From NCBI GenBank assembly GCA_030424545.1, contig JAUHWL010000004.1, positions 124,001 through 188,000 of the forward strand: 64,000 bases of DNA, given 5' to 3'. Origin of the DNA: Bacteroidia bacterium (lineage in GTDB: Bacteria > Bacteroidota > Bacteroidia > Flavobacteriales > Schleiferiaceae). This document shows, piece after piece, positions 25,000-34,877 of the stretch. Under the pieces are notes generated by a model. It worked only from the letters and a program-made list of their open reading frames with translations, was not told the DNA's origin and searched no databases. Numbering within the stretch: the first letter of the stretch is position 1; each line of letters begins with the position of its first letter. A program made the position numbers and the translations under genes.

Positions 25000-25761
25000 A
25001 TGAATTTTTTAGGCGTAATACCAGCTCGCTACGGCAGCACACGTTTAGAGGGCAAACCTTTGGTAGATATTGCGGGTAAGCCGATGATACAATGGGTGTA
25101 TGAAGAAACCCAGAAAGTACTGGATGTGGTTTACGTGGCCACGGATGATGAACGAATTGCAGAAGTTGTAAAAGCCTTTGGTGGCAATGTGGTAATGACA
25201 TCTACTAAGCACCAAAATGGAACAACTCGTTGTCTAGAAGCTTGGGATTTAATTGCCGAAAAAGAGTCACAAACATTTGATGCTGTACTTAATATACAAG
25301 GCGATGAACCGCTGTTGCATCATGGCTCTTTAGAAGATTTAAAGAGTTGTTTTGAAGGAGGAAAAACAGATTTCGCCACCTTAGTAATCCCTGTTACTGC
25401 CGAAGAAGACTTGTTTAATGATTCTGAGGTTTTTGTAACCTTCACAAAAAATATGGATGCGTTGTATTTCAGTCGTTCTGTAATTCCGCATATACGTGGG
25501 CGGCATAAAATGCATTGGTTAGAAGAAGGGAAGTTTTACAAGCATTTAGGGTTGTATGCGTATACTTATAAAGCACTTAAAAGTTTCGCAATAATGGCAT
25601 CTAGCAATTTGGAGAATTACGAAAATTTAGAACAGTTACGATGGTTAGAAAACGGTGGAGCTATTAAAATTGGCATCACCCAACATGAAAGTATACCGGT
25701 AGATACCAAAGACGATTTAAAACGAGTACGTGCAATTATGGAAAAACGGATAGAGTTGTAG
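25000..25761 (+). CDS. kdsB: 3-deoxy-manno-octulosonate cytidylyltransferase
   Basis: 253 residues. The N-terminal nucleotide loop is GVIPARYGSTRLEGKPL, followed by the NIQGDEPL metal site, and LYFSRSVIPHIRG and VETKDDL-like (VDTKDDLKRVR) endings. KdsB makes CMP-KDO from KDO and CTP in the cytoplasm, the activated sugar for lipopolysaccharide inner core. It begins a series of KDO genes with kdsA 1.8 kb downstream. A TACATTTG -7-like box lies at 24977-24984. The last codons form half of an inverted repeat with the convergent WG-repeat gene. Confidence 0.93.
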   Translation: MNFLGVIPARYGSTRLEGKPLVDIAGKPMIQWVYEETQKVLDVVYVATDDERIAEVVKAFGGNVVMTSTKHQNGTTRCLEAWDLIAEKESQTFDAVLNIQGDEPLLHHGSLEDLKSCFEGGKTDFATLVIPVTAEEDLFNDSEVFVTFTKNMDALYFSRSVIPHIRGRHKMHWLEEGKFYKHLGLYAYTYKALKSFAIMASSNLENYENLEQLRWLENGGAIKIGITQHESIPVDTKDDLKRVRAIMEKRIEL

Positions 25762-25783
25762 TTTACAGCTCTATCCCGTTTTT
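25746..25783. terminator. Bidirectional terminator built from two gene ends
   Basis: An 8-bp stem (25748-25755 pairing with 25769-25776), extendable past a bulge, is followed by five T residues on each strand. It consists of the C-terminal codons of kdsB (RIEL) and of the convergent WG-repeat gene (GIEL). Confidence 0.55.
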
Positions 25784-26263
25784 GTCTATAAAGGTGAATT
25801 TGCCATCTTTTTTAACTTGGGCTAAATTCTTTTTGTAATCGCCAAACGAGTAAATTTCTTGGTAATTAGGTTCTACAACTTCAATTCCATCTTTATCTAT
25901 AAATCCCAATAAATCGTTCTTTTTTACAAGTGCCCAGTCTTTTTTGTAATCGCCAAACGAGTATATTTCTTGATAAATAGGTTCTACAACTTCAATTCCA
26001 TCTTTATCTATAAATCCTAATAAATCGTTCTTTTTTACAAGTGCCCAATCTTTCTTGTAATCGCCAAACGAATAAATTTCGGTGTAAACAGGTTCTACAA
26101 CTTCAATTCCATCTTTATCTATAAAACCAAATAATTGGTTTTTTTCTACCATAGCCCAACCTTTTTTGTATTCATCAAAACCAAAAATGGTTTCGTAATT
26201 TGATGTTGAAAAGGCAGACAAAAAAACTAGGGCCAAAGTGCTTAGAAAGAAACTGGTTTTCAT
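25763..26263 (-). CDS. WG-repeat protein, secreted
   Basis: 166 residues with a signal peptide (FFLSTLALVFLSAFS). The mature protein consists of WG repeats of the form GFIDKDGIEVVEP followed by YxEIYSFGDYKKDWALVKK, 37 residues per unit, about four copies with the first and last diverged. The family (KWG Leptospira/WG repeat) is usually extracellular and of unknown function. At DNA level the central units are almost identical and spaced exactly 111 bases apart. It converges with kdsB, with one base between the stop codons. It has no obvious partner gene. Confidence 0.8.
   Translation of the reverse strand: MKTSFFLSTLALVFLSAFSTSNYETIFGFDEYKKGWAMVEKNQLFGFIDKDGIEVVEPVYTEIYSFGDYKKDWALVKKNDLLGFIDKDGIEVVEPIYQEIYSFGDYKKDWALVKKNDLLGFIDKDGIEVVEPNYQEIYSFGDYKKNLAQVKKDGKFTFIDKNGIEL
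25837..26169. repeat. 111-bp tandem coding repeat in the WG-repeat gene
   Basis: The same sequence beginning TTCTACAACTTCAATTCCAT occurs at 25871, 25982 and 26093, exactly 111 bases apart. The adjoining AAATCGTTCTTTTTTACAAG and CGCCAAACGA blocks also recur with one or two changes. Boundaries are approximate. The high identity suggests recent duplication or gene conversion. Confidence 0.85.
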
Positions 26264-27545: not shown

Positions 27546-28379
27546 ATGTCTAAAAAAATTGTAAATATTGGAGATATAAAGGCAGGTGCCGATAAACTGT
27601 TTTTAATTTCTGGACCATGTGTTATTGAAGATGAAATAACCATGATGAAGGTTGCTGAAAAATTAAAGCAAATTTCAGAAAAACTAGATATTCCTGTTGT
27701 TTATAAATCCTCATTTATGAAAGACAACAGGAGCTCTGTAAACTACTACATGGGCCCAGGTATGGACGAAGGATTGCGCATTTTACAAAAGGTAAAAGAA
27801 CAATTTGGTTTTCCGTTGCTTACAGATATACATTATCCTAGCCAAGTAAAAGCTACTGCAGAAGTTGTAGATATTTTACAAATACCCGCCTATTTGTGTA
27901 TGCAAACCACTTTGGTTGTAGAAGCCGCAAAAACCGGGAAAATTGTAAACCTAAAACACGGCCAATTTTTGGCGCCAGAAAACATGAGCAAACCTGTACA
28001 GAAAATAGAAAGTACAGGAAACAAGAACATTATTTTAACCGAGCGTGGTTATACCTTTGGTTATAATGATATGGTGGTAGATCCGCGTGCCATTTACGAA
28101 ATGGGCCAAACCGGTTACCCTGTAGTGTTTGATGTTACGCATGCCATTCGTAAATACGGTATTCCTAGTGCAGACCCAAGCGGTGGCGCACGCCAATATT
28201 TACCTGTTTTAGGTAGAGCAGGCGTAGCGGCTGGTGTAGACGGACTTTTTGTAGAGGCGCATCCTTGCCCAAGCGAAGCACTTTGCGATGCTGCAAGTCA
28301 ACTAGATATGTCTCAGTTAGAAGAATTTTTACTTCCGCTAATAGAAATGCACGAAGTAGAAGTGAAGTACAGAAAATAG
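27546..28379 (+). CDS. kdsA: 3-deoxy-8-phosphooctulonate synthase (KDO-8-P synthase)
   Basis: 277 residues of the DAHP-synthase-like TIM barrel. Family segments include FLISGPCVIEDE, YKSSFMKDNRSS (where KANRSS is usual), TDIHYPSQ, the LKHGQFLAP motif and DVTHAIRKYG. The enzyme condenses D-arabinose 5-phosphate with phosphoenolpyruvate. The gene appears to have its own promoter and is followed 90 bases later by the transaldolase-CBS fusion and the KdsC-like phosphatase, both on the same strand. The substrate arabinose 5-phosphate would usually be supplied by KdsD, which is not found nearby. Confidence 0.95.
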   Translation: MSKKIVNIGDIKAGADKLFLISGPCVIEDEITMMKVAEKLKQISEKLDIPVVYKSSFMKDNRSSVNYYMGPGMDEGLRILQKVKEQFGFPLLTDIHYPSQVKATAEVVDILQIPAYLCMQTTLVVEAAKTGKIVNLKHGQFLAPENMSKPVQKIESTGNKNIILTERGYTFGYNDMVVDPRAIYEMGQTGYPVVFDVTHAIRKYGIPSADPSGGARQYLPVLGRAGVAAGVDGLFVEAHPCPSEALCDAASQLDMSQLEEFLLPLIEMHEVEVKYRK

Positions 28380-28469: not shown

Positions 28470-29489
28470 ATGGAATTATACTTAGACTCAGCCGATTTAA
28501 AAGAAATTAAAGAAGCGTTTAAACTTGGCTTTTTAACAGGCTTAACAACAACTCCAACATTCATGCATCGCGAAGGAATTACCGACATTGACGGTACCAT
28601 TCTGGAGTTAGCCAAAATTGTTCCTATACTACAAATAGAAGCTTTAGGAAGAACAGCAGAAGAAATTGTTGCAGAAGCAAAACGCCAAGATGCTTTAGGC
28701 TTAGATCGTGAAACTACGGTATATAAAATTCCTGTATCGTTAGAAGGTGTTCGCGCCTGCCGCATGTTGGTAAACGAAGGTTTTAAAGTAAATGTACACC
28801 TAGTATACACCTTACAACAAGCCTATATGGCAATGCAAGCTGGTGCAACTTACGTTTGCCCACTTGTTGGTCGTTTGCAAGATCAAGGTACAGATGCATT
28901 AAGTTTAGTTAGAGATTGTGTAGAGGCTGTAAACTATTACGGTTACGATACCAAAATCATGTTTTCTTCTGTACGTTACGTAGAGCATGTTCGCAACGCC
29001 TTAGAAGTTGGCGTACACACCATTACAGTACCTTACAAAGTGATGAAACAACTAACAGAAAATCACTTTACAGCTTTAGGTACAGAGCAGTTTTATGAGC
29101 ACACTGGTTTAATGACGTTGCGCGTAAAGGATTTAATGCAAGGCCATAACCCAATGGTTACATTAAATAACAACATTAATGATGCTTTAATAGAAATGAC
29201 CAAAGGTGGTTTTGGTGCCGTTACAATTGTAGATGACAACCAAAAGCCAATTGGCATTTTTACTGATGGAGATTTACGCAGATTAATTGAAGCCGAAGGA
29301 GCTACAGCAGTAAACAAAAAAGTAAGCGAATTAAACATTAGTACACCACAAAGCATAGATGCTGGTGAGCTACTTTATAGCGCTCAAGATATATTTAACG
29401 CACAGCAAGTAGATTGCATCATCGTAACATCAAGCGGTAAAGCAACGGGAATGTTAGATGTACAAGACATGCTTAAATTGAAAAAATGA
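28470..29489 (+). CDS. Transaldolase-like domain fused to a KdsD-type CBS pair
   Basis: 339 residues. Residues 1 to about 215 are a class I aldolase barrel of the transaldolase/fructose-6-phosphate aldolase family: MELYLDSADL with Asp6, the TTTP motif (26-29), the Schiff-base Lys86 in VYKIPVSLEGV, YVCPLVGRLQDQG, and FSSVRYVEHVRNALEVG. Residues 220-339 are two CBS motifs; ALIEMTKGGFGAVTIVDD and GIFTDGDLRR closely match the CBS pair of arabinose-5-phosphate isomerases (KdsD/GutQ/KpsF), whose SIS domain is absent. The Asn of the family's TTNP signature is Thr28. It lies between kdsA and a KdsC-like phosphatase, whose ATG overlaps its stop (ATGA). I infer a role in supplying or sensing arabinose 5-phosphate or KDO; this is not established. 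Confidence 0.82.
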   Translation: MELYLDSADLKEIKEAFKLGFLTGLTTTPTFMHREGITDIDGTILELAKIVPILQIEALGRTAEEIVAEAKRQDALGLDRETTVYKIPVSLEGVRACRMLVNEGFKVNVHLVYTLQQAYMAMQAGATYVCPLVGRLQDQGTDALSLVRDCVEAVNYYGYDTKIMFSSVRYVEHVRNALEVGVHTITVPYKVMKQLTENHFTALGTEQFYEHTGLMTLRVKDLMQGHNPMVTLNNNINDALIEMTKGGFGAVTIVDDNQKPIGIFTDGDLRRLIEAEGATAVNKKVSELNISTPQSIDAGELLYSAQDIFNAQQVDCIIVTSSGKATGMLDVQDMLKLKK

Positions 29490-30199
29490 GATTTTCTGAA
29501 ATAGAAAACACATTTACCAAAATGGGAGGAGAATTTATTTCTTCTCCCATTATTATTTCTAAGAAATTAGAAAACATAAAGGCCTTGGTTTTTGATTGGG
29601 ACGGTGTGTGGCATAGCGGTAAAAAAAATGGTGGTGGGCAAAGCTCATTTAACGAGGTAGACAGCATGGGTCTTAACATGCTGCGTTTTGGATATTACCT
29701 AAAAACAAAAAAAATCCCCTTAACCCTAATCATTACTGGAGAACAAAATCATACTGCTTTTGATTTTGCAGAGCGCGAACATTTAGATGGGGTTTTTTAC
29801 AAAGCAAAAAACAAATCAGAGGCACTAGACTTCACACTAAAGAAATGGAAACTAAAAGAAGAAGAAGTGCTTTTTGTTTTTGATGATATTTTAGATCTGG
29901 GTATGGCCGCTAGAGTAGGAGCGCCTTTTTTAGTGAACAGATTAGGCAGCCCAATGTTTTCTCAGTTTACAATAAAGCACAAGTGGTGTCTGTATAAGTC
30001 TGCCGCTACAGGCGATACAAATGCAGTGCGCGAAATTTGTGAACTTGCCTTAGGATTGCTTAAAATGTTTGAAGAAACAGTGGTTAAACGGATGAATTTT
30101 GATGCAGAATACACCACGTATTTAGAAAAGCGAAATGGCCAGAAAACAGAATTTTTCACTAAAGCAGACAAAGCATATACAAAAACAAAAAGGCCGTAA
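29486..30199 (+). CDS. KdsC-like HAD phosphatase
   Basis: 237 residues, longer than the 170-180 of ordinary KDO-8-phosphate phosphatase because of about 30 extra N-terminal and 50 extra C-terminal residues. HAD motif I is FDWDGVWHSG, where KdsC has DVDGVLTDG. Motif II is LIITGEQNHTA, motif III Lys is in KAKNKSEALDFTLKKW, and motif IV is VFDDILDLGMAARVGAPFLV, the pattern of KdsC. The enzyme class removes phosphate from KDO-8-P. The start codon overlaps the stop of the transaldolase-CBS gene by four bases, indicating translational coupling. The divergent motif I leaves some doubt about the exact substrate. Confidence 0.72.
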   Translation: MRFSEIENTFTKMGGEFISSPIIISKKLENIKALVFDWDGVWHSGKKNGGGQSSFNEVDSMGLNMLRFGYYLKTKKIPLTLIITGEQNHTAFDFAEREHLDGVFYKAKNKSEALDFTLKKWKLKEEEVLFVFDDILDLGMAARVGAPFLVNRLGSPMFSQFTIKHKWCLYKSAATGDTNAVREICELALGLLKMFEETVVKRMNFDAEYTTYLEKRNGQKTEFFTKADKAYTKTKRP

Positions 30200-30290
30200 G
30201 TATCCTTAAATAAACGTTTTAAAGGTCTTACTCATTTACCCAACTTAGTTACACTTGGTGCACATAGATTTGTATTCACACAAAAAAACT

Positions 30291-33200
30291 ATGAGACATT
30301 TATTATTAACACTACTCGCCATATTTTTTTCTTTTGCGGTTTCCTCACAATGCATTGAATCTTATCCTTATTCAGAAAATTTTGATGGACCTGATTTTGT
30401 CAAACCGGCTAATGTTTCCTTGCCAGGCCAAATTGCATCTTGTTGGAACCGCGTACCTGCGGCAAACGATTATATTTGGGTGCCAGGCCCTTCAATAATT
30501 GTAAACAGTAATACTGGGCCGTTAGCAGACAAAAGTGGAAATGGAAAATTCATGTATACCGAAAGGGCAGGGTTTACTCCGCCACCAAACACCGCAAATT
30601 TAACTTCTCCTTACATTGATTTGTCTACGGCAACTACCCCACGATTATCATTTTGGTATTATATGTACGGTAGCCAAATAGGCGCACTTACTACACAAGT
30701 TAGCAATGGTAGCGGCTGGTCCTCTGTTCATACAATTTCTGGGGCGCAACAAACCACAAATACAGGCAATTGGGTTAATGTTATCGTACCTCTTTCTACA
30801 TATGTTGGCGACACAATTCGAGTGCGATTTGTTGGTCAAAAAACAAATGCCAGTAATTTATCTCGCATTGCCATAGACGAAATCTCTATTGCACAAACGC
30901 CCACCTGTTTGGTACCATCAAATTTTTATTTAACAAATACTACGGCATCAACCACTACGGTGGGTTGGACAAATGTTGCGACTTCATCTTATGAAATAGA
31001 ATATGGATTATCAGGTTTTGCAATTGGTTCTGGAACAAGAATTATAGCATCTAGCAATCCTCAACTTATAACTGGATTAAACGGATCTACCTCTTATGAT
31101 TTTTACCTTAGACAAATATGTGCGGTAAATGATACTAGCGCTTGGCTAGGCCCAGAAAACACAACTACTTTGTGTTCTAGCCCAATGGTTGCACCAATTT
31201 ATGAGAATTTTGACTCTCCAAATTGGGAACCTTACTCAAGCTTTCAAAATCAAGGAAACATTGCACCTTGTTGGGCAAGAAGTGGAAATGGGACGGGTAA
31301 CAGCTGGCATGCAAATCCAAATTCATTTAACTCATTTAATACAGGGCCAAATGCCGATCATACTTCTGGAAGTGGAAAATATGTTGCTTTTCAGAGAGTA
31401 ACAGGAATTAGTACTAACTTTTTCGGAAACTTAAGATCTCCAGAAATTGATTTAAGTGGGGTGTCAAATCCAGAATTGTCTTTTTGGTACCATATGTATG
31501 GGGCCCAAATAGATAAATTAGAAGTAGAAGTAAAATATGTTTCTGGTGGGCCTTTTACAGTGGTACAAACCATTACTGGACAGCAACAAACAAGCTCCTC
31601 AGATCCTTGGTTAAACTCTACAATATCATTGTCGGGATATGCCGATTCTATTGTTCTTATTCGCTTTAAAGGATATAGTACTTCACAATTTGCAACCCAA
31701 GCAAAAATCTCTATAGATGATTTAAGTATTGTGGCTGGTTCCAGTTGTCCCAAACCAAGTAATTTATTAGCGGCAAATATTAGCGCAACAACAGCAGATG
31801 TTTCTTGGGTAGGTGCTCCTACTGGCAATTACGAGGTTAAGCGTGGGCCCAATGGTTTTAACCCAAATATTACAGGTGTTGGTACAACAGGTATTGGATT
31901 AACACAAACTATTTCGGGTTTAACACAAGGAACCAGTTATGATATATATGTTCGGAAATTGTGTTTTAATAATGACACAAGTAATTGGTTAGGTCCAATT
32001 CAAATAAAAACACTTTGTGTAGCATCCACTCCTTACACACAAAATTTTGATGGTTCTTCTTGGATTGCCCCATTAAACTTCAACGACATTGGTAGTGTGG
32101 ATGATTGTTTTAATAGAAATGAAAACGGTAATTATAGCTGGGTAGTTGGACCTGAACAGTTTCCATCATTTCAAACAGGCCCTTCTTCTGATCATACTAC
32201 GGGAACTGGTAAATATGTTTTTACACAACCATCATTTCTAGGTAGTTTAAATTCAGATGCTATTTTAAAGACGGAGTTGATTGATTTAACTACATTAACT
32301 GTTCCAGAGCTATCCTTTTGGTATCACATGTTTGGTAATCAAATTGGTACGTTAACTGTTGATATAAATGATGGTAGCGGTTGGACTCAAGTATTTACTA
32401 AATCTGGGCAGGTGCAAACGGCTAAAACAGATGCTTGGAAAGAAGTTATAGTCAACCTTTCTAGTTACGCGAATGATACCATTCAAATAAGGTTTAAAGC
32501 AACTCGAGCTCAAAACGCTTTTAATTGCGAAATAGCTATTGATGATATTGATGTACATGAACAACCGAGTTGTCCAAAGCCTCAAAATTTAATTGCTTCA
32601 AATGCCTCTTTTAATAGCGTTGAGTTGGCATGGCAAACAGGCGGTGCAACCAATTGGATTATACGTTTAGAAGCCGCGGGATCAACAAACACGTATGTAG
32701 CGGCAAATACCAATCCGTTTACAGCTACGGGGCTATTGCCAAATACAAAATATAAAGTGTGGGTAAGAGATAGTTGCGGAACAGCAGATGTAAGTGAATG
32801 GTCTGAATTTGATTCGTTCCGTACATTCTGTTTGCCAACTACGGCTCCGTTCACCGAAAATTTTGATGGAACTGTTTTTGTACCGTTTTCTTTGACAAAT
32901 CAATATGGAGCAATAGATCCTTGTTTTAAAAGAACAGATACCACAGATTTTTATTGGGTGCCCGGTCCTGGGCAGTTTTCTACTTTCCAAACTGGGCCAG
33001 ATGTAGATGCCTCTGGAACAGGCCAATTTATGTACACAAGAACAAGTAATTTTCAATCGGATTTAGTAACAGTATTTAGTTCTCCGTGGGTTGATATTAG
33101 TTCTTTGTCATTACCCGAAGTTCGCTTTAAATACCATATGTATGGGGTAGATATAGATAAATTGGTTGTAACATTAAATGGTTACGATGGATCTACACAA

Positions 33201-34877
33201 ACCATTAAAACGCTTTCGGGGCAATCGCACACCAGTGGTTCTGCTGCATGGTTACAAGAAATTTTACCGTTGGCTAATTTAACCAGCGATACGGTGCAAA
33301 TTGTATTTACAGCTCATAGGCTATCAACCGGATTCAGGTCTGAAATGGCAATAGACGAAGTAGAATTAAGCAATCCGTTGGCTTGTGCAGATCCTACTAG
33401 TTTGGTGGCGGCAAATCCAACTACAAACTCGGTTGATTTAACTTGGACAAGCAATACCTTGAGTTTTGCAACCAATATAGAATATGGGCCATCTGGTTTT
33501 ACACCAGGTGGTGGAGGAACAATAATTTATAGTGTAACTAGTCCGTACACGGTAAGTGGACTAAGTCCTAATACAGCCTACGATTTTTACATACAAGATT
33601 CTTGCTCGTGGGGAGGATTAAGTACGCAGATTGGGCCTGCATCTGCAACAACATTGCCTTGTTTAGCAGTTGTTTCATCACCAGTATTATCTAGCTCTAC
33701 AGGTTTAAATGCTTCGTTTTCTGGTTCAAGTTCTACAGGTAGTATAAGTAACTATTTTTGGGATTTTGGCGATGGAAACACTGATAGTGTTGTTAGTCCA
33801 AACCATACGTATAGCGCTGGTGGAGTTTACCAGGTTATGCTTGTAGTTTCTAGTGGATGCGGAAGCGCAGATACAGCATATATTACAGTTTCAATTTGCG
33901 AAACACTCACACCACAATTTTCTTTCGCGAAAAATGGTTTAACCTTATCGGTAGATGGTTCTGTATCTGTTGGTACGTTTTTAAACTTCTCTTGGACATT
34001 TGGCGATGGTAATTCTGGTGCCGGTGTTGCAACCAACCATACCTATAGTGCAGATGGAATCTATGATGTTTGGCTGTTTATTACAGATACATGCGGAAAT
34101 AAAGACTCAGTAATGCAAAGTATCGCTATTTGTTCTCCTATATCGGCTCAAATTAATTATACCCAAAATGGCACAACGGTGTTGTTTGATGGTACCGGTG
34201 GTAACGGAGCGATAGAGTGGTTGTGGCTATTTGGCGATGGAAATCAAGATACAAATGCCACAATCTCGCATACATATGCTAGTACAGGCACGTATCAAAT
34301 TACACTTTACACTACTAATTTATGTGGAGATAAAGACACCGCCACACTTATATTAACGCTTTGCAACGCGCCAAAAGCAAGTTGGAAGTATTCAATTTTA
34401 TCTTCTGGCGGTGGCGGTATGACGGTTCAGTTTGACGGTTCAGCATCTATTGGTGCCAATAGCTTTAGTTGGGATTTTGGCGATGGAAACACCAACACAC
34501 TATCGGCAATTCCGGTGCATACATACAGCGTTCCCGGCTTGTTCTATAATGTATCGCTTACCGTAACCAATTCTTGTGGAGATGAAGATAACTTGACAAG
34601 CACGTTAGCGTCAATAGGAATTGAAGATTTTAACACCCTTGATATTAAAATTTTCCCCAACCCTGCAGATGATTACATTGTTTTAAGTGTGCCTAATTAT
34701 ATAGATGTGCAAGAAATTAGTATAAATTCTATGACGGGGCAAAAAATGGCTGTTCGTGCAGAGCAATCGGAAAATACAATCTCGGTAAAAACAAAAGTTT
34801 TTGCCAACGGAACTTACTTCCTTACTATCAAAACAGATGCGGGCACTGCCGTTTACCAAGTGTTAATAGCGCATTAA
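30291..34877 (+). CDS. Giant modular surface protein with MAM-like, FN3, PKD and T9SS domains
   Basis: The reading frame opens at 30255 with TTG, but the signal peptide (MRHLLLTLLAIFFSFAVSS) begins at 30291. The 1528-residue protein has four similar blocks, starting near residues 22, 300, 578 and 851. Each has a MAM/concanavalin-like half (ENFDG at the start, LSFWYHMYG in the middle, IAIDDI near the end) and an FN3-like half. Four PKD repeats follow at about 1126, 1205, 1283 and 1360, each with a FGDGN turn. The C-terminal 75 residues are a type A sorting domain (IKIFPNPADDYIVL, NGTYFLTIKTDAG). The domains suggest a cell-surface adhesin or carbohydrate-binding protein secreted by the Por system; no catalytic domain is visible. 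Confidence 0.85.
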   Translation: MRHLLLTLLAIFFSFAVSSQCIESYPYSENFDGPDFVKPANVSLPGQIASCWNRVPAANDYIWVPGPSIIVNSNTGPLADKSGNGKFMYTERAGFTPPPNTANLTSPYIDLSTATTPRLSFWYYMYGSQIGALTTQVSNGSGWSSVHTISGAQQTTNTGNWVNVIVPLSTYVGDTIRVRFVGQKTNASNLSRIAIDEISIAQTPTCLVPSNFYLTNTTASTTTVGWTNVATSSYEIEYGLSGFAIGSGTRIIASSNPQLITGLNGSTSYDFYLRQICAVNDTSAWLGPENTTTLCSSPMVAPIYENFDSPNWEPYSSFQNQGNIAPCWARSGNGTGNSWHANPNSFNSFNTGPNADHTSGSGKYVAFQRVTGISTNFFGNLRSPEIDLSGVSNPELSFWYHMYGAQIDKLEVEVKYVSGGPFTVVQTITGQQQTSSSDPWLNSTISLSGYADSIVLIRFKGYSTSQFATQAKISIDDLSIVAGSSCPKPSNLLAANISATTADVSWVGAPTGNYEVKRGPNGFNPNITGVGTTGIGLTQTISGLTQGTSYDIYVRKLCFNNDTSNWLGPIQIKTLCVASTPYTQNFDGSSWIAPLNFNDIGSVDDCFNRNENGNYSWVVGPEQFPSFQTGPSSDHTTGTGKYVFTQPSFLGSLNSDAILKTELIDLTTLTVPELSFWYHMFGNQIGTLTVDINDGSGWTQVFTKSGQVQTAKTDAWKEVIVNLSSYANDTIQIRFKATRAQNAFNCEIAIDDIDVHEQPSCPKPQNLIASNASFNSVELAWQTGGATNWIIRLEAAGSTNTYVAANTNPFTATGLLPNTKYKVWVRDSCGTADVSEWSEFDSFRTFCLPTTAPFTENFDGTVFVPFSLTNQYGAIDPCFKRTDTTDFYWVPGPGQFSTFQTGPDVDASGTGQFMYTRTSNFQSDLVTVFSSPWVDISSLSLPEVRFKYHMYGVDIDKLVVTLNGYDGSTQTIKTLSGQSHTSGSAAWLQEILPLANLTSDTVQIVFTAHRLSTGFRSEMAIDEVELSNPLACADPTSLVAANPTTNSVDLTWTSNTLSFATNIEYGPSGFTPGGGGTIIYSVTSPYTVSGLSPNTAYDFYIQDSCSWGGLSTQIGPASATTLPCLAVVSSPVLSSSTGLNASFSGSSSTGSISNYFWDFGDGNTDSVVSPNHTYSAGGVYQVMLVVSSGCGSADTAYITVSICETLTPQFSFAKNGLTLSVDGSVSVGTFLNFSWTFGDGNSGAGVATNHTYSADGIYDVWLFITDTCGNKDSVMQSIAICSPISAQINYTQNGTTVLFDGTGGNGAIEWLWLFGDGNQDTNATISHTYASTGTYQITLYTTNLCGDKDTATLILTLCNAPKASWKYSILSSGGGGMTVQFDGSASIGANSFSWDFGDGNTNTLSAIPVHTYSVPGLFYNVSLTVTNSCGDEDNLTSTLASIGIEDFNTLDIKIFPNPADDYIVLSVPNYIDVQEISINSMTGQKMAVRAEQSENTISVKTKVFANGTYFLTIKTDAGTAVYQVLIAH

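Follow-up and report, generated by a model that had tools for sequence, protein, structure and literature searches.

We suggest that a fusion protein encoded in the window (the whole stretch of 64,000 nucleotides analysed here) probably supplies arabinose 5-phosphate (A5P) to KdsA, standing in for the isomerase KdsD. The first committed step on the way to Kdo, and hence to lipopolysaccharide, is the supply of A5P. Many Bacteroidota seem to be without the usual A5P-making enzyme and to carry instead a reworked transaldolase-type enzyme joined to the regulatory half of KdsD, beside the next gene of the pathway. The reading is supported by the Kdo-gene context, a near-exclusion with KdsD, distinct KdsA partners, and an invariant Lys86, Asp6 and Arg-Ser-Arg phosphate site; against it stand 12 of the 34 fusion genomes of the window's family, which have no detectable kdsA, one genome (G497) that holds both suppliers, and 16 of 68 loci without kdsA within 1.5 kb upstream. 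An earlier note, made from the DNA letters alone, had proposed a role in A5P supply for this gene, and the KdsD exclusion and the Kdo-gene context now support that role, with the fusion in the place of KdsD. If this is correct, it accounts for the absence of kdsD from many Bacteroidota genomes and records a non-homologous displacement within an envelope pathway; synthetic glycolaldehyde or pentose pathways would also gain a natural A5P-forming enzyme built on the transaldolase scaffold.

Architecture and distribution of the fusion

The fusion gene (28470..29489, + strand, ATG start) encodes 339 residues, of which 1-~215 (28470..29114, +) form a TAL/FSA barrel domain by Pfam PF00923 and alignment of the AlphaFold2 (AF2) model, and ~216-339 (29115..29486, +) a KdsD/KpsF-type CBS pair by TIGR00393 and a PDB sequence match to 3k2v. 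The Pfam family TAL_FSA (PF00923) matches residues 3-201 (E 1.2e-35, 123.7 bits against a gathering score of 27) and CBS matches residues 219-273 (E 2.5e-12), while the NCBIfam model TIGR00393 (kpsF) aligns to residues 216-329 only (E 9.5e-21), with its profile positions 154-267, the CBS part; the domain boundary drawn in the earlier note is thus borne out. A Pfam scan of the protein gave no SIS domain (PF01380) at E up to 0.01, and no Pfam or NCBIfam model among the matches listed spans both halves.

The same architecture recurs in many genomes. It is found in 34 of the 88 genomes of the window's family, the window's own counted (31 copies full-length, three partial at contig ends), and in a scan of genome contigs 472 of 587 candidate stretches among the matches listed encode relatives; the best 80 of these 472 were retained, and their alignments run over fusion residues 1-334 or more. 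The full-length family copies and the best 80 loci exclude a misassembled boundary, a danger that the earlier note had raised, and a frame error is likewise ruled out. The protein, a barrel with a CBS pair and without SIS, is therefore real. By their record titles the best 80 loci are mostly Bacteroidota (Flammeovirga, Thermonema and Thermoflexibacter isolates among them) and some are of Ignavibacteria type; single records are titled Chlorobiota, Saccharibacteria or 'bacterium', and such labels of metagenome-assembled genomes may be wrong. The fusion is a minority trait in the phylum sample: in an even set of 392 well-assembled genomes (completeness 90% or more), 7 carry it, the window's own counted. 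That it is a plasmid gene was considered and rejected, as none of 194 matching plasmid records covers 80% of the query.

For comparison of residues we aligned 52 fusions (the window's, 40 of the best 80 loci and 11 family loci) with E. coli FsaA, TalB and the TalC-type protein of the window's own genome as references. The CBS signature T265, D266, G267, R270 and R271 is present in all 52, and TDG and RR also occur in all five KdsD compared; the motifs EMTKGGFGAVTIVDD and FTDGDLRR, from which a KdsD-type CBS pair had been recognised, are both in the translation. The best PDB sequence match of the CBS part is 3k2v (an A5P isomerase CBS pair, E 1.1e-13), and three of its four best matches are A5P isomerase CBS structures (3k2v, 3fna and 4o9k). 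The AF2 model built on the 52-sequence alignment has a mean pLDDT of 91.1 and a pTM of 0.71. Its barrel superimposes on B. subtilis transaldolase (3r8r) with Z 29.3 and an rmsd of 1.3 Å over 196 residues, and on E. coli FSA (1l6w), the overlay proposed in the earlier note, with Z 27.6 and an rmsd of 2.2 Å over 216 residues; the Foldseek and structure-match lists were taken up by the barrel and do not extend to the CBS part. The FSA model TIGR00875 covers residues 1-210 at 165.1 bits, under its equivalog cut-off of 245.95.

Gene neighbourhood

The fusion follows kdsA, the Kdo-8-phosphate synthase gene (27546..28379, +; TIGR01362, 334.9 bits, cut-off 314), and is followed by a gene for a KdsC-like HAD-family phosphatase (29486..30199, +), whose ATG overlaps the fusion stop by 4 nt (ATGA) and whose matches to YrbI/KdsC models are weak and below cut-off. 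The placement of the fusion between kdsA and a KdsC-like gene is thereby upheld, with kdsA over cut-off upstream and a weakly KdsC-like HAD downstream. The CMP-Kdo synthetase gene kdsB (25000..25761, +; TIGR00466, 210.2 bits, cut-off 155.2) ends 2.7 kb upstream of the fusion, with corA and a reverse-strand ORF in between. Positions 25763-26263 (- strand) encode a 166-residue protein in which a unit of about 37 residues (..FGDYKKDWALVKKNDLLGFIDKDGIEVVEP..) recurs in tandem, by eye like WG repeats. Positions 30255-34877 (+) encode a secreted-looking protein of 1540 residues; by eye, its domains are repeated, PKD-like repeats occur, and its C-terminal tail is similar to a type IX sorting signal.

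The conclusion that the HAD neighbour is certainly KdsC is not upheld. Against the KdsC model TIGR01670 it scores 30.1 bits (cut-off 106.95), although all 26 aligned family copies that accompany a fusion have its aspartates D37, D39, D133, D134 and D137. Of 16 fusion genomes, 11, among them the window's own, encode another protein that matches a YrbI/KdsC-type model over cut-off, which means that the HAD neighbour is not necessarily KdsC; in G502 and G515 this match is confined to frames of about 390-404 residues, and the other five genomes have none. In the window's own genome the second, KdsC-type phosphatase is encoded at G000:C10:44049-44495 (133 bits, over cut-off).

Among the best 80 loci, kdsA lies at most 1.5 kb upstream of the fusion in 52 of the 68 with enough sequence, the HAD gene lies at most 1.2 kb downstream in 59 of 75, and kdsB is found anywhere in the locus in 19 of 80; two KdsD queries gave no match near the fusion in any of these 80 loci. 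Eleven of the 80 (L058, L059, L068, L069, L072, L073, L078, L082, L092, L094 and L097) have, close to the cluster, adjoining genes for an aminotransferase of the DegT type and an iron-containing alcohol dehydrogenase. KdnA is the aminotransferase that acts after KdnB toward 8-amino-Kdo. In Shewanella the route from Kdo to 8-amino-Kdo opens with an oxidation at C8 by KdnB, itself an iron alcohol dehydrogenase, according to the accessible text of PMC5125639. We consider it likely from the gene pairing that the two neighbours are KdnA and KdnB for 8-amino-Kdo in Bacteroidota and Ignavibacteria, a reading that supports Kdo as the product of the pathway. No NCBIfam model was passed over cut-off by either neighbour, and the alcohol dehydrogenase family of the 11 loci also contains lactaldehyde reductases.

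Exchange with KdsD

In the 88 family genomes, TIGR00393 finds KdsD in 40 (21 SIS+CBS, 18 SIS-only and one contig-edge fragment); 34 have the fusion, none has both and 14 have neither (Fisher p 2e-13, relatedness ignored). A KdsA match of at least 269 bits is present in 64 of the family genomes (58 over cut-off), and these divide into 22 with the fusion, 39 with KdsD and three with neither (Fisher p 3e-14, relatedness ignored); one further family genome has KdsD without a KdsA match of at least 269 bits. The same model was run on 54 fusion genomes; judged by identical contig coordinates, one of them appears twice (as G453 and G501) and three (G481-G483) also belong to the family set. Only G497 has a full KdsD; in the other 53 the model yields the fusion's own CBS part or other CBS proteins only, at E up to 1e-12. 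With the repeat and the family genomes removed, 49 of 50 fusion genomes are without KdsD, and kdsA is found in 49 of the 50 (48 over cut-off; none in G510 and a fragment in G525). The earlier note had asked how the fusion is distributed relative to kdsD and had reckoned with a normal kdsD in every fusion genome as one result that would tell against it; the survey found the opposite, a near-exclusive distribution with KdsD in none of the 34 family fusion genomes and in one of the 54 searched with the same model. The KdsD gene of G497 (locus L143, G497:C2:411000-426000) lies beside what appears by eye to be a mannose-1-phosphate guanylyltransferase gene.

We also searched 16 fusion genomes for SIS domains. 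Each has a frame of 612-692 residues bearing two SIS domains, which by its size we take to be GlmS-like; the other SIS frames are about 157-392 residues long and mostly partial matches; in G453 a frame of 282 residues covers the SIS model in full. No SIS protein in these 16 genomes passes the KdsD model. An isomerase other than KdsD elsewhere in the fusion genomes could still conceivably be the source of A5P.

The KdsA proteins divide by their supplier. In the family, the window's KdsA shares 69-79% identity with the copies next to a fusion and 40-47% with those next to KdsD, and an unrooted tree of 14 KdsA separates the six KdsD-linked copies from the fusion-linked ones with a support of 1.000. 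Genus g18 holds both kinds (G071 with the fusion, G074 with KdsD), and its KdsA proteins are split in the tree likewise. The identities and the tree suggest that the unit exchanged is kdsA together with its A5P supplier. G011 has a kdsA of the fusion type and no fusion was found in it, which suggests, because of that type, that the fusion is probably absent from the assembly only. A small tree of the barrels is too thin to place the origin of the fusion. In four family genomes (G043, G058, G067 and G079) waaA was found, and kdsA, KdsD and the fusion were not detected.

The family fusion genomes without detectable kdsA (G042, G044-G048, G052-G056 and G083) belong, in 11 of the 12 cases, to one small-genome genus. 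Eight of the 12 have a kdsB match (seven of these just under cut-off) and nine have waaA, so that the use of Kdo seems to be kept. A contig break as the reason for the missing kdsA was examined beside the deoxynucleoside-kinase gene that adjoins kdsA in G050, G051 and G040. The comparison is informative for G056 alone, which has a kinase 98% identical, yet other sequence where these relatives have kdsA; G053, G054, G052 and G045 share the arrangement of G038, in which kdsA sits on another contig. No second synthase was noticed by eye in the ORF lists near kdsB in G053, G044, G055 and G054. Either kdsA lies in unassembled sequence of these genomes, or a different synthase is used, or the fusion has another use.

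A rival proposal is that the fusion and the HAD protein make another sugar, used beside or instead of Kdo, and merely reside with kdsA. The HAD gene does still adjoin the fusion in nine of the 12 kdsA-less family genomes (a contig or ORF ends in the other three), and the 11 genomes of 16 with a KdsC-type match elsewhere point the same way; however, the remaining five leave the HAD protein as a candidate for KdsC, and such a sugar would sit poorly with the exchange with KdsD, with the distinct KdsA partners and with the presence of kdsA in 49 of the 50 fusion genomes outside the family set. We regard this proposal as improbable and retain A5P supply in place of KdsD as the preferred reading.

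The active site and the route to A5P, compared with known enzymes

Lys86 (codon 28725..28727, +), the equivalent of the Schiff-base lysine (FSA Lys85, TalB Lys132) and already picked out in the earlier note, is present in the translation and in all 52 aligned fusions. Asp6, Thr26, Thr27, Pro29, Arg135 and Ser167 are equally kept in 52/52, as are the TalB-like Asn108 and Arg169. FSA Asn28, Thr109, Ala129 and Tyr131 are replaced throughout by Thr28, His110 (codon 28797..28799, +; also in place of TalB Thr156), Cys130 and Leu132, and TalB Asn35, Ser176 and Phe178 by Thr28, Cys130 and Leu132. Glu57, again in every copy, stands where FSA has Gln59 and the genome's own TalC has Glu, the TalB alignment being uncertain at that place. 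Catalysis by FSA is covalent through Lys85, with Tyr131 as the dominant proton shuttle; the donor is contacted by Asp6 and Asn28, and the catalytic water is held by Gln59-Thr109-Tyr131 (PMC13259622, accessible part); this water-binding and proton-shuttle set has become Glu57/His110/Leu132 in 52/52 fusions. In TalB F178Y the acceptor phosphate is bound by two arginines and one serine, as described in the part of PMC3962226 available to us. By its residues the fusion keeps the covalent lysine and the phosphate site and has its donor side remade. This favours an enzyme over an inactive barrel and tells against ordinary FSA or transaldolase activity; with Thr, His, Cys and Leu in place of Asn28, Thr109, Ala129 and Tyr131, the fusion is by signature neither FSA nor transaldolase. 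The FSA-type barrel of the earlier note thus stands as a fold, by Pfam and the AF2 model, and not as a typical FSA.

The earlier note had offered regulation of the pathway as an alternative to catalysis. CBS pairs are regulatory modules, and in 12 family genomes the fusion persists where no kdsA is detectable, both of which would suit a barrel that senses a sugar phosphate while the fusion controls KdsA or the operon and an unrecognised isomerase provides the A5P. However, Asp6, Lys86, Glu57, Arg135, Ser167 and Arg169 are invariant in 52/52, no SIS protein passed the KdsD model in 16 fusion genomes, and TIGR00393 found no KdsD in 53 of 54; because the catalytic positions are invariant, a purely regulatory or moonlighting role is less likely, and we give it the lowest standing of the readings considered.

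In the preferred reading, the barrel would hold a pentose phosphate by its phosphate and use Lys86 in making A5P. CMP-Kdo acts on enzymes of the KdsD type. The CBS pair, being of the KdsD kind, would sense a late product of the pathway, probably CMP-Kdo, and throttle the supply. The scaffold can make A5P, since FsaA and TalB F178Y do so (PMC9947464, accessible part).

The chemistry is the least certain part of this mechanism. Triose-phosphate isomerase uses a Lys/His/Glu catalytic set, which Lys86/His110/Glu57 resemble. Within the A5P-supply reading we place first, though short of an even chance, an isomerisation of ribulose 5-phosphate by these residues. As a proposal in its own right, an aldose-ketose isomerase that converts ribulose 5-phosphate into A5P without a Schiff base can be put forward only tentatively from the residues: the changes of Thr to His at 110 and of Phe/Tyr to Leu at 132 are invariant (52/52), the exchange with KdsD across genomes fits, and the substrate would be that of KdsD (PMC9478572, accessible part), so that no new metabolite is required, but the fusion retains Asp6 and Asn108, two residues of aldol chemistry that speak for C-C chemistry.

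Second within the A5P-supply reading, and also below an even chance, comes a Schiff-base aldol addition of glycolaldehyde to glyceraldehyde 3-phosphate, the route proposed in the earlier note. It has a precedent in E. coli FsaA, which makes A5P from both substrates in vitro without ribose 5-phosphate as a by-product and which the accessible text of PMC9947464, a synthetic-pathway paper and the only place where our literature search met the phrase, names an arabinose 5-phosphate aldolase; TalB F178Y yields both A5P and ribose 5-phosphate (same source). A transaldolase has also been crystallised in covalent complex with A5P (3upb, according to the entry's title), and Lys86, Asp6 and the phosphate-site residues are kept in 52/52. 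Nevertheless, Tyr131, the dominant proton shuttle of FSA (PMC13259622, accessible part), is Leu, Thr109 is His and Asn28 is Thr in every fusion, and the Pfam scan of 17 representatives of recurrent neighbours gave no obvious glycolaldehyde producer, the iron alcohol dehydrogenase of 11 of the 80 loci being better read as KdnB-like. In addition, the affinity of FsaA for glycolaldehyde was judged insufficient in vivo (PMC9947464, in the part accessible), and the dependence of an essential sugar on free glycolaldehyde would be unusual. The precedent in FsaA stands and the route itself is not established, and a natural A5P aldolase that joins the two substrates directly through Lys86 is, taken as a separate proposal, rather doubtful. 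Three observations place isomerisation slightly above aldol addition: the loss of the FSA proton shuttle, the appearance of an invariant His next to the lysine position, and the lack of an obvious glycolaldehyde producer among the scanned neighbours. Third, and with little weight, ribose 5-phosphate could be epimerised by aldol cleavage and re-addition.

A more far-reaching scenario, speculative at this stage, is that a transaldolase barrel became, by way of a Lys/His/Glu set, an isomerase of ribulose 5-phosphate and A5P, took over KdsD's CBS sensor and replaced KdsD in part of the Bacteroidota and Ignavibacteria, which would give the first committed step of Kdo a second, non-homologous origin.

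We noticed no description of a barrel-CBS fusion in the literature searched, which was mostly outside subscription journals, and in similarly mostly non-subscription literature found no paper that combines 'arabinose 5-phosphate', 'transaldolase' and 'CBS domain'. What is new here is probably that a known superfamily carries out a known pathway step with novel active-site residues and a regulatory domain taken from another enzyme. With KdsD/KpsF/GutQ (TIGR00393) the fusion has in common the C-terminal CBS pair with TDG..RR, the site beside kdsA and the probable product, A5P, but it is without SIS and its catalytic half is a transaldolase-type barrel. With FSA (TIGR00875, E. coli FsaA) it shares the barrel fold and the equivalents of Asp6, Lys85, Arg134 and Ser166, but it falls below the equivalog cut-off, has Thr for Asn28, Glu for Gln59, His for Thr109, Cys for Ala129 and Leu for Tyr131, and bears a CBS pair in addition. 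It is 36% identical over residues 1-209 to the stand-alone TalC-type transaldolase of its own genome (G000:C14), and TalC-type transaldolases (this copy and B. subtilis 3r8r) have, like the fusion, Glu where FSA has Gln59; however, the genome's own copy keeps Asn28, Thr111, Ser131 and Phe133, where the fusion has Thr, His, Cys and Leu. FsaA and TalB F178Y, the A5P aldolases of synthetic glycolaldehyde pathways, have the same fold and make A5P in vitro (PMC9947464, accessible part), but this use is promiscuous or engineered, with no natural role in the Kdo pathway, and their active-site residues are unlike those of the fusion.
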